In this document: in pieces, positions 11,897 through 29,729 of the stretch
How positions within the stretch are numbered: the first letter of the stretch is position 1
Layout of the letters: each line of letters starts with the position of its first letter
IMG/VR virus record: IMGVR_UViG_3300043570_000570
Location: 52,183-116,182 of that record
Reading direction: 5' to 3' (one strand)
Source of the DNA: a virus
Length of the DNA: 64,000 nucleotides
Program-made: the position numbers and the translations under genes
Notes under the pieces: model-generated
Databases searched by the model: none
The model's input: the letters and a program-made list of their open reading frames with translations, nothing else
What the model was told of the DNA's origin: nothing

Positions 11897-12880
11897 TTAG
11901 TAAGTTACTGCTCCAGAGTATCCAGGAGCTATTATGTAGAGATTTAAAGTTCCTCCACTAGTTAAAGTAGAAGTTGTATGAGTGGAAACTCCAGGATACG
12001 TTCCTCTTACATTAGTAGCTGCGGCTTTGATAGCATTGTATTCAGTTAAAGTAAAGATACGTACATCAGGAGCTGTTCTCCATTTAGAAAATCTTCCTGC
12101 TTTTCTTGCAGCTACATAATACTTATCTGCTACAGAGATTATCTTGTCATCATTGACATCAAACATATGGAAAGATAAACCATTTCTACTAGTCTTATTT
12201 AAAACTACATTGGCTACTGCTTGAATATCTGTATTAGTGTAGGCTTGGATTCTAGTGGGAGCATTTACTTCTATATAATATTCTTTAGAAGGATCATAAG
12301 CTTCTGAAATCGAGTAGTAGCCAGCAGAGTTAGTATAGATTGTTTTGTAGAGAGCCCAAGAAGAAGTTGTAACTAAATACTCAAACTCTAGTACGTAAGC
12401 TAGATTGTTATTATTGTTTAGGTCATTCCATCTACCATTAGATACAAACTGTACATAGTCTTCATTACCTGAGTTGTTAGGTTCTCCACTGTTCCAGTTC
12501 TTATAAGAGTAAGTTTCTCCTGTTACCCATCTCCAAGTTCCTTCTGTTACTTCATCTGTTAAACCTATCCAGCCAGAAGGCCATAAAGCAAATAAAAAAC
12601 TTTGTTCTCCTGATGTTGTAATAGTTACTAAGTGACCACCCATATTAGAACAGTTAGTTCTAGCTGTAGTCCAAGTAGCACTACCTGTAGAACGGTAATA
12701 AGAGTGTCCTCCGTAGTTCTGTTGATTAGTGAATCCTGTAATGGTTTGGTTTGTTCTTCTGTAGAGCTTTATAGCCACATTAGAAGCACCAGAACCATTT
12801 GCATTATACAAGTATCCAGAGTAGGTAAATTGTGCACTCAGTGAGTTCACAAAGAAGAATAGAATAACAACCCATCTCAT
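11897..12880 (-). CDS. Secreted C-type lectin domain protein
   Basis: 327 residues. A signal peptide (1-16, cleaved after LSA) is followed by the start of a beta-sandwich (20-48), a C-type lectin domain (about 55-168) and the rest of the sandwich (175-210). The lectin core reads GGHLVTITT, WIGLTDEVTEGTWRWV, then EPN (133-135) and WND (151-153), the calcium and mannose-type sugar-binding signature. Only one cysteine (C77) is present, so the usual disulfide is absent. Residues 238-325 repeat a module of the T9SS-tailed protein at 15666. It is probably displayed on the cell or virion surface and binds glycans. Confidence 0.8.
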   Translation of the reverse strand: MRWVVILFFFVNSLSAQFTYSGYLYNANGSGASNVAIKLYRRTNQTITGFTNQQNYGGHSYYRSTGSATWTTARTNCSNMGGHLVTITTSGEQSFLFALWPSGWIGLTDEVTEGTWRWVTGETYSYKNWNSGEPNNSGNEDYVQFVSNGRWNDLNNNNNLAYVLEFEYLVTTSSWALYKTIYTNSAGYYSISEAYDPSKEYYIEVNAPTRIQAYTNTDIQAVANVVLNKTSRNGLSFHMFDVNDDKIISVADKYYVAARKAGRFSKWRTAPDVRIFTLTEYNAIKAAATNVRGTYPGVSTHTTSTLTSGGTLNLYIIAPGYSGAVTY

Positions 12881-15318: not shown

Positions 15319-15669
15319 TTATGAATTAGTTGTGTTTGATAGTGATTCTCCGTCTTCCTCATCGACCTTCTGTATTAACATCTTGTCTCTGTCTTCAGAG
15401 TTAAACCAATAGTCAACTACTTTGTTTAAGTTACCTACAAAGGCACCCAAGAGAATAAGTAGCAATTCTTTCCAGTCTTCTCCAATAGAAGCTCCCATAA
15501 ATACTGCTGCATTGATTCCAAGAATAATTAAAGTAAACAAACCTAACACAATAGCGGTAATTTTCCAACGATTGGCTTGCATTTGTTGTAGCATGTAGTA
15601 GAACCTGTTTTTAGGATCTACTGCTACTGGTTCTGCTTGGGTAAGACCAAGTGCTTTTTTTATGTTCAT
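15319..15669 (-). CDS. Two-helix membrane protein, holin-like
   Basis: 116 residues with two strong membrane helices (about 36-60 and 69-82), then VGNLNKVVDYWFNSEDRDK and an acidic tail. The second helix followed by a Trp-Phe and a charged Ser-Glu-Arg-Asp-Lys motif resembles the '3TM holin' type found in many phage lysis cassettes. It overlaps the cohesin/T9SS gene by 4 bp and is 5 bp from the next gene. Here it may serve envelope remodelling rather than lysis. Confidence 0.6.
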   Translation of the reverse strand: MNIKKALGLTQAEPVAVDPKNRFYYMLQQMQANRWKITAIVLGLFTLIILGINAAVFMGASIGEDWKELLLILLGAFVGNLNKVVDYWFNSEDRDKMLIQKVDEEDGESLSNTTNS

Positions 15670-17567
15670 TTTTGTACAATTATTTTAGAATGTAATACTT
15701 CTGTCTCAGTAGTTACAGAAAGAATATAAACGCCATCAGAGAGACGATCTAGGTTTGCACTATACTTGTACTTACCTGCGGGCATACGTTGTTTTAAAAG
15801 AGTCTCTATGCGTCTTCCTACCTCATCTGAGATAGCCATGTCTACGTTAGAGTCTTCTTTAATCTTGAATTGGACTTGGATGTTTCCTTCTGTAGGGTTA
15901 GGGAATACTATAATAGAGTTTAAGTCGTTAAGCGAAATAGTTCCTTTGTTGACTCTACGAACTTCAATGATTCCCATAGCAGGAGTAATGTTCATATCCT
16001 TAGAGTCTTTATCTCCTACGTATTTAGCACCTGTCCACAAAGCTGCACTTGCCCAAGAGTCTTGGGGTTTTTTAGCAATGAACTGAACTTTAAAAGCTTG
16101 TTCTCCATCGTTAAGCATGTTCTCGTTAGTTAAGTCAGCACCTCCCCAAGAAACCATTCCATTAGAAGGGTTCATGTAGGTAGTCCACTTCATCATCTTT
16201 TCAGAGTTCTCAATACCTTTAAACTCTAAGTAAGCTGTGTCGTACCTAAGATCTAACTGTAATGCACCTAAGTTCTTTCCGTTAGTCAAAACTTTAACAG
16301 GAACGTTAACTAGGTTTCCTTCTTCTACACTTACTTTAGGCATATTTACCTCAATAGTTTCTGCAGGGAAATCATAACTTACAGTTTCGTCAATAATGTA
16401 ACGCTTTGCGTTAGCTTGATTAGTAATTTTAATAGGAGTCAAACGAGCCATCTTAAATCCTGTAGCATTGGCGTCTCCCTTAACAGCTACGTAGTAAGTG
16501 ATAGAATCATTACCATCTACACTGTAAGTAAAGTTATTTATAGTAGAGTATGTGGAGGTCAAGTTAGATGTGGCGCCATTGATTGCATTGTATTCAGCAA
16601 CTGTAAAGAACATTACGTCTTTTTTAGAGTTAGGCCATGCAGTAAATCTACCTGCCAATCTTCCGTAAACAGCGTATACGTCAGCAATAGAAATATCTCC
16701 AGTAGTTCCGTTTACATCCATTGTGTAGTAATCAAAGCCTGTAGGAGTGTATTGACCTAAGATAGATTGATTAATCTTCTGTGCATCTGCAGTAGAGAAT
16801 ACATTACCTGGGATCATTGTGTCTCCTTTAACTACAATGCGTACATCCCAATAAGTAGTATCTAGGAATTTCTTAAACACAGTAACACCCAATGAGTTAG
16901 TCTTTTGTGAAGCAATCTGAGACCAAGTTGAAGAACCTTTAGCTCTCTTCTCTAAACTAACAGTTAAGTTCTTAGCATCTGTACCAGTTACGTTTTTAAA
17001 CTTAGTAGCAAAACGCAATACTTTCTGATTGAAACGTCCACCGTAAGAGTAAACTACCAAAGTAGTATCGTTACCCCAGTTAGTAGCAGCTCTGTTAGAG
17101 AATGACTTAACACCTGATACTTTTAAAGTCTTGATAGAATCTAAACTATTCCATACAGTTTCACCTGCGTGAGTAAAAGTCAAATCAAATGTAGCTCCGT
17201 TAGAATAGTTAAAAGTAGAACTAGATCCTGTGTAAGCCAAAGTAACTGTCAAGAATCCTTGTAGGTTACTATCTACATACTGAAGGTATTGATCAGAAGC
17301 AGAAATCTTAAGAGAAGGCACAACTCCTGTAAAAGCAGTCTTATCATAGAATACACGGAATTGCATACCTGTAATCTTCTCTGAAGTAGAAGTATTGTAG
17401 AAATGCAGAGGAGCAACTGTTTGACCTACAGTAGTTGTTGCTACTTGATAGCCTGAGTCAATTACTACCCAGTGACCTGTACCTGGAGAGGTAGCAGAAG
17501 ATTGTGCTGATGCATTGCCAACCAACAATGTGAGCACTCCGATGAGGACTTTGATTATTTTATTCAT
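15666..17567 (-). CDS. Secreted cohesin-type protein with T9SS sorting tail
   Basis: 633 residues: signal peptide 1-21, cohesin-like beta-sandwich (about 40-170), spacer, module shared with the lectin protein (275-375; DVNGTTGDISIADVY resembles a dockerin or EF-hand repeat), second cohesin-like domain (405-535; VPVKVLTNGKNLGALQLDL), and a type A T9SS C-terminal sorting domain (550-633; VFPNPTEGNIQVQF, AGKYKYSANLDRLSDGVYI, HSKIIVQK). In T9SS bacteria this tail sends a protein across the outer membrane and anchors it to the surface. Its presence on a phage predicts surface display on an infected host that has T9SS. Followed closely by membrane and lipoprotein genes. Confidence 0.85.
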   Translation of the reverse strand: MNKIIKVLIGVLTLLVGNASAQSSATSPGTGHWVVIDSGYQVATTTVGQTVAPLHFYNTSTSEKITGMQFRVFYDKTAFTGVVPSLKISASDQYLQYVDSNLQGFLTVTLAYTGSSSTFNYSNGATFDLTFTHAGETVWNSLDSIKTLKVSGVKSFSNRAATNWGNDTTLVVYSYGGRFNQKVLRFATKFKNVTGTDAKNLTVSLEKRAKGSSTWSQIASQKTNSLGVTVFKKFLDTTYWDVRIVVKGDTMIPGNVFSTADAQKINQSILGQYTPTGFDYYTMDVNGTTGDISIADVYAVYGRLAGRFTAWPNSKKDVMFFTVAEYNAINGATSNLTSTYSTINNFTYSVDGNDSITYYVAVKGDANATGFKMARLTPIKITNQANAKRYIIDETVSYDFPAETIEVNMPKVSVEEGNLVNVPVKVLTNGKNLGALQLDLRYDTAYLEFKGIENSEKMMKWTTYMNPSNGMVSWGGADLTNENMLNDGEQAFKVQFIAKKPQDSWASAALWTGAKYVGDKDSKDMNITPAMGIIEVRRVNKGTISLNDLNSIIVFPNPTEGNIQVQFKIKEDSNVDMAISDEVGRRIETLLKQRMPAGKYKYSANLDRLSDGVYILSVTTETEVLHSKIIVQK

Positions 17568-23294: not shown

Positions 23295-23870
23295 TTACTT
23301 CTGAAACCTCAGATAATCTGTAGTACCTGGATCTTCGTTCTTGAAATAATAGACTTCCTTTACTTTACCGTACTTGATAGTCTTTAAAAATCCATCAGGG
23401 ATAGTAGCTCCTGTTGGTAATCTTAAGCTAGTTTTAGAGTAGACCATCTTGATCTCTACCTCAACACTCTGACTCTTAGAAAGCTCTCTTTCTCTTACTT
23501 CTAATAGTCTCCAAGCTCCTCTGTTTAACTTCTCGTGCTGAAGAACACAGTTAAGGTAAGAAAAGGTTTGCCATAAGGTAGGTCTATCACAGTTAAAATC
23601 AGCTGCTGGAGCACAATGTCCCTTATCCCATACATTTCCTTCATAGTCTTTTCCGTCTGAAGTCTTAATAGAGTCGTTAGTGTAGAAGTCCATTCCCTTT
23701 CTAGGATAAGAACCCAAGGGACATTGGACAATGTACCAAACTCGCTTAGGCTGTTGTAAGATCTCTGAGTAAACACAAGAGTATATAGGAGTCTTTACAA
23801 AGACAGAGTCTCTCTGAGAGTAACTAGTACCTAGTACTAGAAAACTTAAAATAAAAAGTAATTGTTTCAT
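23295..23870 (-). CDS. Secreted NucA/EndA-type non-specific nuclease
   Basis: 191 residues. Signal peptide 1-19 (FILSFLVLGTSYSQ). The catalytic segment WDKGHCAPAADF (about 81-92) matches the DRGH[LM]APAAD motif of DNA/RNA non-specific endonucleases. The downstream SYLNCVLQHEKLNRGAWRLLE supplies the metal-binding Asn and the usual NRG-W-LE motif. Arg in DRGH is replaced by Lys. The enzyme should cut nucleic acid outside the cytoplasm. It is the last gene of the kinase cassette. Confidence 0.85.
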   Translation of the reverse strand: MKQLLFILSFLVLGTSYSQRDSVFVKTPIYSCVYSEILQQPKRVWYIVQCPLGSYPRKGMDFYTNDSIKTSDGKDYEGNVWDKGHCAPAADFNCDRPTLWQTFSYLNCVLQHEKLNRGAWRLLEVRERELSKSQSVEVEIKMVYSKTSLRLPTGATIPDGFLKTIKYGKVKEVYYFKNEDPGTTDYLRFQK

Positions 23871-23897
23871 TGTTTAATTTTTTAGTTGTTTCATTGT

Positions 23898-24065
23898 TTA
23901 ATTAAAAGTGTTTCTGTCTTTCTTAGCAAACGCTTGATCTATAAAAAAAGTTAGACCAAACATAATAATAATAGTCATTGCTGCATTAAAGACGCTTACA
24001 ACATACATCTCTGCTTCTTTAGAAGTTTCTACTACTGATAGTAACGTGGATAAAATTAGTGTCAT
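23898..24065 (-). CDS. 55-residue single-helix membrane protein
   Basis: ATG at 24065 overlaps the TGA of the preceding gene (ATGA), stop at 23900-23898. Sequence: a short polar start, then helix AAMTIIIMFGLTFFIDQAF and a basic end (KKDRNTFN). Overlapping start, full use of the gap and clear membrane content support it. Too short for the supplied list. Probably part of the kinase cassette. Confidence 0.6.
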   Translation of the reverse strand: MTLILSTLLSVVETSKEAEMYVVSVFNAAMTIIIMFGLTFFIDQAFAKKDRNTFN

Positions 24066-24646
24066 TTTTTTGAGTCTTTTGAATCTTTTGAATCTTTGGA
24101 GTCTTTTGAATCTGTCATGTGTTTAACTCCCATTATTGTTCCGATAATAGAAAAACAGTTGGTTAGAATAATACCAAACATATTACTCCAGGTACTCTCG
24201 ATGATCTTAGAGTCTAGTCCTCTGCTTAGTACGAAAAGATAAAGTACAGTAGTAAGTATACAAACAGCACCTACAGCTCCCAAAGCTACCTTTACTATCA
24301 AACCAATAAGCTCAAACTGGGTTTTTTTCTGAAGTGTTTCTAAATCATCAACTGCCAATTCTCTCAACTTCTCAGACTCAGACAAAGCCTGCTTTAGTTC
24401 AAGCATTAGTTTTTCTTTCTCTGCTTGGCTCTCTATTAGGTCTTTGTTCTGGGACTGTACTTGCTTAGTTACTTCTAGTCTTTTTCTACGAGTGTCTTGG
24501 TCTTTGGTCTTAGCCTCGTCTAAGTAGTCTTGAAAGTTTTTATCCTGAGTTTTTACTACCTTAAGTAAGTTTCCCTCTAATGCAATCTTCTTAGATTTGT
24601 AGAGGGAGACAAGAGAGCTTTCAATATCTTTACCAAAGGATATCAC
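24062..24646 (-). CDS. Coiled-coil protein with two membrane helices
   Basis: 194 residues. Residues about 20-110 form a long charged coiled coil (KRLEVTKQVQSQNKDLIES). Two membrane helices follow (115-140 and 155-173; a TWSNMFGIILTN segment bridges them). The tail is a tandem DSK repeat (179-193) encoded by a 9-bp repeat. It directly follows the receiver gene (1-bp gap) and overlaps the next small membrane gene. Such a layout could pass a signal between cytoplasm and membrane, for example as partner of the receiver. Function is inference; no named family. Confidence 0.75.
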   Translation of the reverse strand: MISFGKDIESSLVSLYKSKKIALEGNLLKVVKTQDKNFQDYLDEAKTKDQDTRRKRLEVTKQVQSQNKDLIESQAEKEKLMLELKQALSESEKLRELAVDDLETLQKKTQFELIGLIVKVALGAVGAVCILTTVLYLFVLSRGLDSKIIESTWSNMFGIILTNCFSIIGTIMGVKHMTDSKDSKDSKDSKDSKK

Positions 24647-25084
24647 TTACTTATATACTTTAAAGGAAGCAGTTTTATTCTTATACCCCTCATAGTCCTT
24701 ACGAAAAGATTCTAGTCTAGGTTCAATCTCATCTGACTTGATGATCCAGAACTGAGCACCTACAGCTTTTGCTTTTTCTATTTCTTGTTTATCATCAGAA
24801 CTAGAAATAATCCCTATCACCACTCCGTTGCCGTACTCAAAGTTAATCTTACGAATCAACTCTATGCCGTCAAAAGAAGAACCAATAATATTAAGGTCTA
24901 CAAAAACGCATTCAGGTCTTTCATCTGCAGGTCCTTCAACAAACCATCTCTTAAACAATCTATCAGCTTCATCAGAAGAAGTTAGAGTTTGCAGAGAAAG
25001 AGTAATGTCTAATAAGCTACAAGAATCCTCAAACACTAAGTGAAAAAGGTCTTCGTCATCTACGAGTAATATTGAGTCTATCAT
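24647..25084 (-). CDS. Stand-alone response-regulator receiver domain
   Basis: 145 residues, one receiver domain only. Acid pocket LLVDDED (D9, D10), phospho-acceptor D63 in CVFVDLNI, switch Ser in IISSSDD (about 94-96), conserved Lys116 in WIIKSDE. There is no DNA-binding or enzymatic output domain, so it is CheY/Spo0F-like. It lies 7 bp after the histidine kinase gene and is read together with it. Output must come through protein contact, possibly the coiled-coil membrane protein encoded next. Confidence 0.9.
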   Translation of the reverse strand: MIDSILLVDDEDLFHLVFEDSCSLLDITLSLQTLTSSDEADRLFKRWFVEGPADERPECVFVDLNIIGSSFDGIELIRKINFEYGNGVVIGIISSSDDKQEIEKAKAVGAQFWIIKSDEIEPRLESFRKDYEGYKNKTASFKVYK

Positions 25085-25091
25085 ATTTTGT

Positions 25092-26294
25092 TTATTTTAC
25101 TTTTATCTTAAGTTTAGTTCCTGTTTCTGGTTCTTCTAGTTTCTCAGCTGTTACTTCAAACTTATGTTCTTCCATAATAGCTGTACATATGTTTAACCCT
25201 AGTCCTGTACCTGCCTCTGTCTGACCTTCTTTCCTCTTATAAGGCTTAGACCACTGTACAAAATCTTCCTGAGACATTCCCCTTCCATTATCTTCAATAA
25301 CTAAAAAATTCCCTTCAGCAAAAATACGTACTAACTTAGTGCTAGAGTCGTTATATTTTAAACCGTTTCTTATTAAATTATCAATCGCTGTACAGAACAA
25401 AGATTCGTTTACTTCAATCTCAGGTAACTCTTCAATAACTACTTGCTTCTCGTAAGAAGTAGAAGATAGGTAGCTGTGTAGAATGTCTTTTAGATTGTGT
25501 TGCTGAACCTCTAAGTGAGCATCTTGCTTAACCAAGTTAGTAAACTCTTTAACTCCGTTATAAACCTTTTGAGTGTGAATCAATCCTTCTGTAATCATTC
25601 TTAGCGGAGCATCTATCTTTAACTCTTTAATCTGCTCTTCAGTCAGTCTTCTTTTTAAGGAAGAAAGTCCCCTAGGAATATAAGTGTTAATTCCTGAGTG
25701 CATATCATGTCTTAAAATCTTAGCAGCATGTTCCAAATAGGAATTCTTTTTAGCAACCTCTGCCTCAATTCTCTTTTTCTCAGTAATCTCCGTAGCAATT
25801 AAAAGAATTTTATAAACCTCTCCGTAAGGATCTTTAATAGGATTGAAGTTTCCATAAAGCCAAGTATTGCCAAACTCATACTCTCCTTGCTTGAAATAGC
25901 CTATTCTTAAATGTGTCCAGAACTCTAACCAATCTCTCTTAGAAGAGTTGTCTAACTCCCTATGACTTTTAACCTCACCAAATATTCGCTTAAACCTGTC
26001 ATTCATACTTAACACTTCTCCATAAGTATCAAACTCTACTAGTAAGTTAGAATTATTAATTGCTTTAAAAGTAGCATCTACACTCTGAAACTTATACCTA
26101 GCTCTCCTTACAAACTCTATAGCAGGATAAAAGAAAAAAGGTAAAAACCCTACTATACACCAATACCCTACTAAATCCCGCTGGTAACTAGAATCTGTGT
26201 ACTTGAAAACAATAGCACTCTGAAAACTTAAATAAGCCAACATTATCACAGAAGCAATAACAACTGATACCTTAGACCTTATACTTAGTTTCAT
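25092..26294 (-). CDS. Membrane PAS-domain sensor histidine kinase
   Basis: 400 residues. Two membrane helices (about 9-30 and 43-60) with a very short outside loop; PAS domain (about 75-175; LLVEFDTYGEVLSMNDRFKRI, ends ITEKKRIEAEV); dimerisation helix with acceptor H196 (ILRHDMHSG); ATPase with N box (DNLIRN, N306/N310), G1 (EDNGRGM, 334-340) and G2 (GTGLGLN, 362-368). All catalytic boxes are intact. It would autophosphorylate and pass phosphate to the receiver encoded 7 bp downstream. The tiny periplasmic loop suggests sensing through the PAS domain or the membrane. Confidence 0.9.
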   Translation of the reverse strand: MKLSIRSKVSVVIASVIMLAYLSFQSAIVFKYTDSSYQRDLVGYWCIVGFLPFFFYPAIEFVRRARYKFQSVDATFKAINNSNLLVEFDTYGEVLSMNDRFKRIFGEVKSHRELDNSSKRDWLEFWTHLRIGYFKQGEYEFGNTWLYGNFNPIKDPYGEVYKILLIATEITEKKRIEAEVAKKNSYLEHAAKILRHDMHSGINTYIPRGLSSLKRRLTEEQIKELKIDAPLRMITEGLIHTQKVYNGVKEFTNLVKQDAHLEVQQHNLKDILHSYLSSTSYEKQVVIEELPEIEVNESLFCTAIDNLIRNGLKYNDSSTKLVRIFAEGNFLVIEDNGRGMSQEDFVQWSKPYKRKEGQTEAGTGLGLNICTAIMEEHKFEVTAEKLEEPETGTKLKIKVK

Positions 26295-26317
26295 CTTTTA
26301 AAGTTAATTGGATGACA

Positions 26318-26346
26318 CAAATATAAGCTAACTTTAAATAAATCAA
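26318..26346 (-). promoter_or_regulatory. Promoter of the kinase cassette
   Basis: On the minus strand TTTG with TTG at 26346-26344, 18 nt, TATATTTG (26325-26318), ATG at 26294. A near-perfect host-type promoter, so the cassette can be transcribed by host RNA polymerase. Confidence 0.8.
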
Positions 26347-26369
26347 AGTCTTGTCTCTGAAAACTTATC

Positions 26370-26580
26370 TCCCCAAAATTTTTAGACCCCCCATCCCAAA
26401 ATTTCTCCCAAAATTTTTTCTAAAATTTTTAGACCCCTAAAATTTTTTATGTTCATAGGAGGGTGGGACCAAAATTTTATACCCCCGTCAACTTGATTAT
26501 ATCTATATGAGGGTGGGGGACACCAATTTAACATACCCCATCCCAAAATTGGCGCTAGGGGTACCCCCTATAAAACGCTA
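26370..26580. repeat. Iteron-like AAAATTT and CCCC repeats at divergent hub
   Basis: Seven AAAATT(T) units at 26375, 26398, 26410, 26422, 26439, 26471 and 26545. AAAATTTTTAGACCCC occurs exactly twice (26375-26390 and 26422-26437). CCCCATCCCAAAATT occurs exactly twice (26389-26403 and 26536-26550). GAGGGTGGG occurs twice (from 26459 and 26509). GGGGTACCCC near 26558-26567 is palindromic. Lies where leftward and rightward transcription part, so it is a candidate origin or operator array. Confidence 0.7.
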
Positions 26581-26914: not shown

Positions 26915-27365
26915 CCCACACTTTGTGGGACAAAGGGTAACTTAACTGTTTAACCTTGCCATTTTACTGTGCATTCTTCTCATTTATCTATGAAATGATA
27001 GTTTTTTTGGTCTCAGCCCGGTAAATAACGAGACAAGACTAAAGAATTCTATCATTTTATGGTATATATGTAGTGGTAAATAGTGGGGAATCACTCCCTT
27101 CAATCTTCTATTTATCACTTAAAAGTGGGTAATTGTGGGGTTGACATGGTACGTTATGAATAATTTGTTGTTCTTATGTTAAATTAGACAACTATTAACC
27201 TCTATAACCTCATTACCCTGTCTTATGCTTTTCTCTTATCTTCTCTTACGTAGTAATCATCATTAGCCTGATGATTCCTTAACTGATTCTAAGCGAACTT
27301 TACGCTTGGTCGACTATGCGACCTTAAATAGCCTTTAGGCATAGTGCGTCACTATATGAGTGGGT
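26915..27365 (+). other. Structured untranslated region with chain of hairpins
   Basis: About 450 bp without a gene. Stems: CCCAC/GTGGG (26915-26929); AAATGATAG 26993-27001 with CTATCATTT 27049-27057, enclosing GTCTC/GAGAC (27010-27034); GTGGTAAATAG 27073-27083 with CTATTTATCAC 27108-27118, enclosing GGGA/TCCC; AATCATCA/TGATGATT (27255-27276); AAGCG/CGCTT (27291-27307); GGTCG/CGACC (27308-27323); GCC/GGC (27331-27340); ATAGTG/CACTAT (27341-27355). No T-runs follow. Probably a stable leader or a non-coding RNA. Confidence 0.65.
27141..27167 (+). promoter_or_regulatory. Weak promoter-like sequence
   Basis: TTGAC at 27141, then TAATTTG at 27161. One base short of the TAnnTTTG form. Could drive the small early genes downstream. 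Tentative. Confidence 0.3.
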
Positions 27366-27524
27366 ATGGAAACAATAATTAAAGAGTATTACTTAACTGA
27401 AGGAAGTAAGTTAGTAAATTATAGCATAGGTACTAATGGTGTTGATTGTTGGTTTGATACTAATGATATTAGACAACACAGATGTTTATCTATTGAAGAT
27501 TTTGAACTTATTAAGGGGGCTTAA
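27366..27524 (+). CDS. Small hypothetical protein (52 aa)
   Basis: ATG at 27366 directly after the hairpin chain; 52 residues, acidic, begins METIIKEYYLTEG. Spacing and codon use match the following small genes. Function unknown. Confidence 0.55.
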   Translation: METIIKEYYLTEGSKLVNYSIGTNGVDCWFDTNDIRQHRCLSIEDFELIKGA

Positions 27525-29642: not shown

Positions 29643-29714
29643 GTCCCTTTCGTCTATTGGTAGGACAGCAGGATTTCATCCTGTTAAAGGTGTGTTCGAT
29701 TCACCCAGGGGATA
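29643..29714 (+). tRNA. tRNA-Glu (anticodon UUC)
   Basis: 72 nt folding as a full cloverleaf: acceptor GTCCCTT with AGGGGAT (7 pairs incl. two G-U), D arm GTCT/GGAC, anticodon stem GCAGG/CCTGT with loop ATTTCAT (anticodon TTC), T arm GTGTG/CACCC (one mismatch) with loop TTCGATT. CCA is not encoded, as is usual in Bacteroidota. It decodes GAA/GAG. The only tRNA I found in the window. Confidence 0.9.
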
Positions 29715-29729
29715 CTAAACTAACTAACT

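Follow-up and report, generated by a model that had tools for sequence, protein, structure and literature searches.

A conserved kinase, receiver and coiled-coil protein cassette in uncultured phages as a candidate control of lysis timing

When phages lyse their hosts is a long-standing question, and the sensing that is known, such as T4 lysis inhibition, works through direct contacts between holin and antiholin. The locus considered here raises the question of what a phage could do with a complete histidine kinase and an adjacent receiver that carries no DNA-binding output. It lies in a 64-kb stretch of a 116-kb virus record, hereafter the window. Matches to a major capsid protein (PF23898, E=3.4e-27), a terminase (phrog_6681), a portal protein (phrog_6547) and a family A DNA polymerase identify the source virus as a crAss-like phage. 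The genes of the window are arranged in two divergent arms, of which the minus-strand arm opens with the cassette. A first-pass annotation, made from the letters alone, had described a cassette of five genes here, and all five open reading frames were recovered on the minus strand with unchanged coordinates.

The first gene, HK (26294-25092), encodes a histidine kinase of 400 aa with a two-helix membrane hairpin, a short PAS-like region, a dimerisation domain containing H196 and a HATPase_c domain. It is followed by RR (25084-24647), a single-domain receiver of 145 aa with D9, D10, D63, S94 and K116 and without an output domain, and by CC (24646-24062), a protein of 194 aa with a GTG start that combines an N-terminal EGN/RRKRLEVTKQVQ module, a coiled coil and two membrane helices. 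The last two genes encode a 55-aa single-helix membrane protein (24065-23898) and a DNA/RNA non-specific endonuclease of 191 aa with a signal peptide (23870-23295; Endonuclease_NS, E=1.5e-18). Kinase and receiver are adjacent, as had been annotated, and the gaps between the five genes, in order, are only 7, 0, -4 and 27 nt, which suggests that they form an operon. The membership of this group had to be narrowed, because its last two members are accessories of subclades, the nuclease of the window's own; of the 93 viral loci having more than 2 kb downstream, the 55-aa protein was found in 35 and the nuclease in 16. The five-gene unit was consequently rejected, and the conserved unit is formed by the first three genes, HK-RR-CC.

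A similar narrowing applies to the promoter. The site TTTG-N18-TATATTTG (26347-26318, minus strand), which ends 23 bp upstream of the HK start, matches the Bacteroidota type, in line with the host-type promoter first annotated, but it is not conserved upstream of the kinase genes of relatives. A strict match was found in only one of 48 HK upstream regions (0.28 expected), that of the window itself, and the site is regarded as local since a similar one precedes only one or two of the 48 HK genes; a conserved dedicated promoter was rejected for the relatives. Beside the promoter, between the divergent arms and near the minimum of the cumulative GC skew, positions 26372-26550 contain CCCAAAATTTTT repeats and a 46-nt imperfect pair, a possible origin or shared control region.

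The kinase has a HATPase_c domain (E=1e-12) and a weak PAS match in Pfam, and PDB profile matches extend over its PAS and kinase regions. The phospho-accepting histidine and the N, G1 and G2 boxes, which in the window are H196, N310, DNGRG and GTGLGL, are invariant in an alignment of 38 sequences, confirming the complete two-component kinase of the first-pass annotation. The receiver matches Response_reg over residues 5-117 with E=6.5e-7, a score 0.3 bits below the Pfam cut-off, and its D9, D10, D63, S94 and K116 are invariant among 15 diverse relatives, as expected for a receiver; D63 and K116 had been assigned correctly. Response_reg is the only domain found in its 145 aa, and a LytTR DNA-binding output domain was not found in it with Pfam. 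HK and RR thus have the defining sequence features of a two-component system with a single-domain response regulator. As for the input, the aligned forms of HK other than those of two loci (L129 and L130) begin with a hairpin of two helices joined by a short loop, behind which most have the PAS region. Several loci (L046, L048, L050-L053, L055 and L101) have the hairpin and kinase only, an arrangement that resembles intramembrane-sensing kinases. Among the PDB matches, 3ewk and Aer are nearest to the PAS region; both bind FAD, so that redox or energy state is at most a reasonable guess for the signal.

In a search of 2.9 million viral contigs, the kinase was detected at 56 loci and a receiver relative in 454 stretches, of which the best 80 were retrieved. 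HK is directly upstream of RR in all 109 viral loci with enough flank, and CC lies within 700 bp downstream of RR in 114 of 115 loci, the remaining one having it 1.1 kb away behind an insertion. Homologues of the three genes therefore do co-occur in phages, and in the same order in 99 of the 99 testable viral loci, although these counts include near-identical copies and correspond to approximately 56 loci distinct by receiver DNA. This agrees with the dedicated phage system that had been proposed. In contrast, the accompanying remark that a kinase with a matching receiver is rare in phages does not hold in nature, given the 454 viral-contig stretches that encode a receiver relative; the pair is absent only from the 50,697 deposited phage records, which gave no RR match, no CC match and four HK matches, all partial, and no cultured carrier phage. 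The carriers are many unrelated uncultured phages, judged by at least two terminase types and by records of up to 294 kb: among 40 viral carrier records, six have a crAss-type terminase and nine a phrog_2 terminase (including those of 252 kb and 294 kb), the latter type being also found in the L129 genome bin. RR is the most conserved component, with a mean amino-acid p-distance of 0.19 compared to 0.40 for HK and 0.42 for CC. Median dN/dS values of approximately 0.09, 0.05 and 0.07 for HK, RR and CC, respectively, indicate that all three are under strong purifying selection, and their three distance matrices are correlated. No paper describing HK-RR-CC was found among those on phage two-component systems, including ones with crAss or lysis, in a search whose coverage mostly excluded subscription papers.

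Outside the viral collections the family is very rare. A single profile scan covering the genomes of 84,980 species of bacteria and archaea gave three loci (L129, L130 and L131), a number that comes from a different search pattern and is not strictly comparable with the 454 viral stretches. In L129, a PhoH-like protein adjoins HK-RR-CC and a terminase is encoded on the same contig, so it looks like a phage contig in a genome bin. L130 and L131 are apparently bacterial sequences of Bacteroidota, in which a multi-PAS HK is followed by RR; they share a homologous kinase core and a receiver of 64-69% identity with the viral cassettes. L130 is without CC, and the N-terminal module of CC is found in L131 only. 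When CC was sought in 395 Bacteroidota genomes and RR in 291 from the order to which L131 belongs, only the genome of L131 matched. In a tree of the kinase core and receiver, the two bacterial loci are split from all 49 viral ones with support of 100/99. A recent capture of a host locus is rejected by this tree and by the rarity of the family in bacteria, and descent from a single recent host locus, which would have spoken against a dedicated phage system, is contradicted likewise. The data fit an ancient acquisition from Bacteroidota and later diversification within phages, a direction that we infer, and the hosts of the carrier phages are probably Bacteroidota.

The conservation of CC behind the receiver draws attention to what this protein could do. 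CC consists of the N-terminal module, with the motif EGN.LK...RRKRLEVTKQVQ.QNK.L, and a coiled coil of variable length that runs into two membrane helices, the second of which is almost invariant (WSNLFGILLTNSFSIIGTIMGVK). In the window its hydrophobic segments span residues 113-131 and 156-174, separated by about 24 residues, and AlphaFold2 predicts a single helix from 36 to 142 (pLDDT 76; pTM low, 0.32), in accordance with the coiled-coil protein with two membrane helices first annotated. No Pfam match over the cut-off, no PHROG match and no match to holin profiles was obtained, sequences of solved structures gave chance-level matches only, and fold searches returned no PDB match and one in BFVD, the uncharacterised phage protein A0A6J5PRT3. 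By these searches CC is outside the known holin and antiholin families.

The best evidence for CC as the missing output of RR is the fusion in L131, in which the N-terminal module (E=6e-21) is joined to HisKA and HATPase domains directly behind RR. What stays constant is thus the module beside the receiver; what varies is the output, a second kinase in the bacterium and the membrane hairpin in phages. Since L131 swaps the output and keeps the RR-adjacent module, CC is probably the output arm of the receiver, that is, a receiver-driven membrane effector, and the three genes very probably constitute a dedicated module with CC as its output. The earlier idea that a receiver without an output domain signals to the membrane protein is thereby upheld, with CC as its most likely partner. 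Two further genes were observed near CC. In one lineage (L030-L033 and L126) RR and CC are separated by an inserted gene for a protein of 163-167 aa, which may be a further membrane regulator, and in L046, L048, L053, L104 and L121 a conserved membrane protein of 330-408 aa with no assigned function is encoded downstream of CC.

Known signalling systems resemble the cassette in part. CheY and Spo0F are single-domain response regulators. Such a receiver, also represented by the Caulobacter MrrA system (PMC5964349), is fed by a histidine kinase, has no output domain and acts by protein contact; HK-RR-CC differs in being encoded by phages and in its dedicated, linked membrane coiled-coil protein. 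The membrane kinase of LytSR, proposed to sense membrane electrical potential, is linked to the holin/antiholin-like proteins LrgAB (PMC4830213), which provides a likeness in connecting a membrane kinase with such proteins. However, LytR is a bacterial DNA-binding LytTR regulator, whereas the viral cassette has no DNA-binding domain and is not of the LytSR type. Phages also encode receiver-like cREC domains, described as never found with histidine kinases (PMC7824862); RR shares the phage-encoded receiver-like domain but is set apart from cREC by the kinase directly upstream.

Clustering of the neighbours of 60 representative loci revealed recurrent holin, amidase, phrog_3000 and spanin-like genes, the spanin-like matches being weak. 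Among 40 whole records, the holin Phage_holin_4_1 (PF05105) occurs in eight, once each and always 1.1-1.8 kb from RR, and the phrog_3000 family occurs in 13, in eight of them at most 2.1 kb from RR; products of gaps calculated for these records serve as description and not as p-values, the lineages being related. The endolysins adjacent to the cassette belong by sequence to several unrelated families: besides Amidase_2 endolysins, they include a phage lysozyme (L042), an SLT (L120), an M15 (L039) and a PG_binding_1 with phrog_3000 (L041). A lysis gene lies within 4 kb in 28 of 56 representative viral loci, always on the cassette strand, in a set whose lineages are related, and in part counted more than once, and so are not independent; the other half has no recognised lysis gene within this distance, many loci being cut short. 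L109 had initially been labelled as having an SLT; this assignment was not upheld, and the locus was dropped from the count. The adjacency may partly reflect the clustering of late genes, as lysis genes are often near tail-fibre genes. In the window, a candidate peptidoglycan enzyme of the phrog_3000 family (P185; 18712-19269, minus strand) is encoded on the same strand as CC, 4.8 kb downstream. It has similarity to the phrog_33083 endolysin and an invariant H131 and SxGC (S144, G146 and C147), and a homologue is fused to PG_binding_1 in L041; a fold search gave no match with E <= 0.001. The family also occurs in cultured Bacteroides phages and crAss002, and this gene is probably the lysis gene of the window phage.

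Because the cassette adjoins holins and endolysins in many phages, a role in lysis is deduced, and we favour, with a probability of roughly 55%, the reading that HK-RR-CC is a self-contained phage two-component system with a membrane rather than a DNA output, which controls the timing of lysis. Control of infection timing, one of the roles first suggested, is favoured by the same neighbourhood. The membrane kinase, with or without PAS, would monitor the inner membrane or the state of the cell and, as its invariant catalytic residues imply, could phosphorylate RR on D63. Gene order, conservation and the fusion of the CC module to a kinase in the bacterium lead to the expectation that the phosphorylated receiver would bind the N-terminal module of CC and thereby change the long coiled coil that runs on into the two-helix membrane hairpin. 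CC might then restrain or release the lysis machinery, in an antiholin-like or holin-modulating manner that the holin and endolysin genes nearby suggest. We give even odds to the further proposition that this is an undescribed and widespread way of controlling lysis, whereby a complete two-component system of the phage would register the membrane or redox state of the host and, through a receiver without an output domain, directly switch a lysis-gating CC. With a kinase-receiver circuit, a phage could integrate a physiological signal and respond rapidly at the post-translational level. HK-RR-CC is found repeatedly in crAss-like and other phages from many metagenomes and so may be one of the important traits of uncultured phages, and it offers a directly testable three-protein system in which a receiver has a dedicated viral membrane effector.

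T4-type lysis inhibition by the holin T with the antiholin RI (PMC11413866) and that of ICP1 by TeaA/ArrA (PMC7182436) may share with the cassette a function, that of responding to a condition by holding back or releasing lysis, but both operate by direct holin-antiholin contacts, with neither kinase nor receiver. Moreover, T4 RI works on the periplasmic side, while for the conserved portions of CC a location in the cytoplasm or the membrane is predicted; with its helices at 113-131 and 156-174, CC does not have the signal peptide or anchor and periplasmic holin-binding domain of an RI-type antiholin.

The same proteins could be read in other ways. Exclusion systems commonly include membrane proteins with two helices, and a membrane sensor with a membrane effector, encoded in the late arm, could serve superinfection exclusion or membrane defence, with HK sensing the DNA injection or envelope damage of a second phage and phosphorylated RR causing CC to block entry. 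Exclusion genes are usually early and phage-specific, whereas HK-RR-CC is conserved across unrelated phages and situated with lysis genes, and we consider superinfection control, the other role first suggested, possible but doubtful; it would also overlap with lysis timing, given that T4 lysis inhibition joins the sensing of superinfection to the timing of lysis. Alternatively, CC itself could be a holin or pinholin, with the receiver controlling when it is triggered. Its two membrane helices with a short loop, the almost invariant second helix and the lack of a recognised holin in some cassette loci are in keeping with this, but phages with a canonical PF05105 holin retain CC, its long conserved cytoplasmic part is unlike known small holins and no holin profile matches it. 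A gated holin is thus unlikely, and the presence of both CC and a canonical holin in several phages makes it improbable that CC is just the main holin.

Two other explanations place the function of the cassette in the host or deny it one in the phage. If RR intercepted or fed host kinases and regulators, and CC only anchored the pair at the membrane, the receiver would be expected to be the most conserved component, as it is, and related HK-RR pairs do occur in two Bacteroidota genomes. Such reprogramming of the host is unlikely, since the obligate linkage to CC and the CC-kinase fusion point to CC as the partner, close host homologues are very rare and no widely shared host pathway is evident. 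That the genes were recently captured from bacteria and have no phage function, or that the contigs are mis-sorted bacterial ones, could be argued from the same two genomes, but it is hardly credible in view of the well-supported split of the bacterial sequences from the 49 viral ones, the low dN/dS and the terminase, capsid and portal genes on the same records.

Several other features of the window were observed. A Pistol self-cleaving ribozyme (Rfam RF02679, 47.8 bits) is located at 27308-27369 on the plus strand, at the start of the plus-strand arm, and a single tRNA gene, tRNA-Glu (TTC), is found at 29643-29715 on the same strand. On the minus strand, several adjoining late genes between 11386 and 18043 encode proteins with apparent signal peptides, among which is a protein with a C-type lectin domain (11897-12880; PF00059, E=1.5e-17). 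Another, of 633 aa (15666-17567, minus strand), has a signal peptide, a Cohesin domain and a C-terminal Por_Secre_tail, a sorting domain of type IX secretion, and from these domains this virus protein looks addressed to a Bacteroidota secretion system. The window phage seems to export many proteins, the nuclease included.
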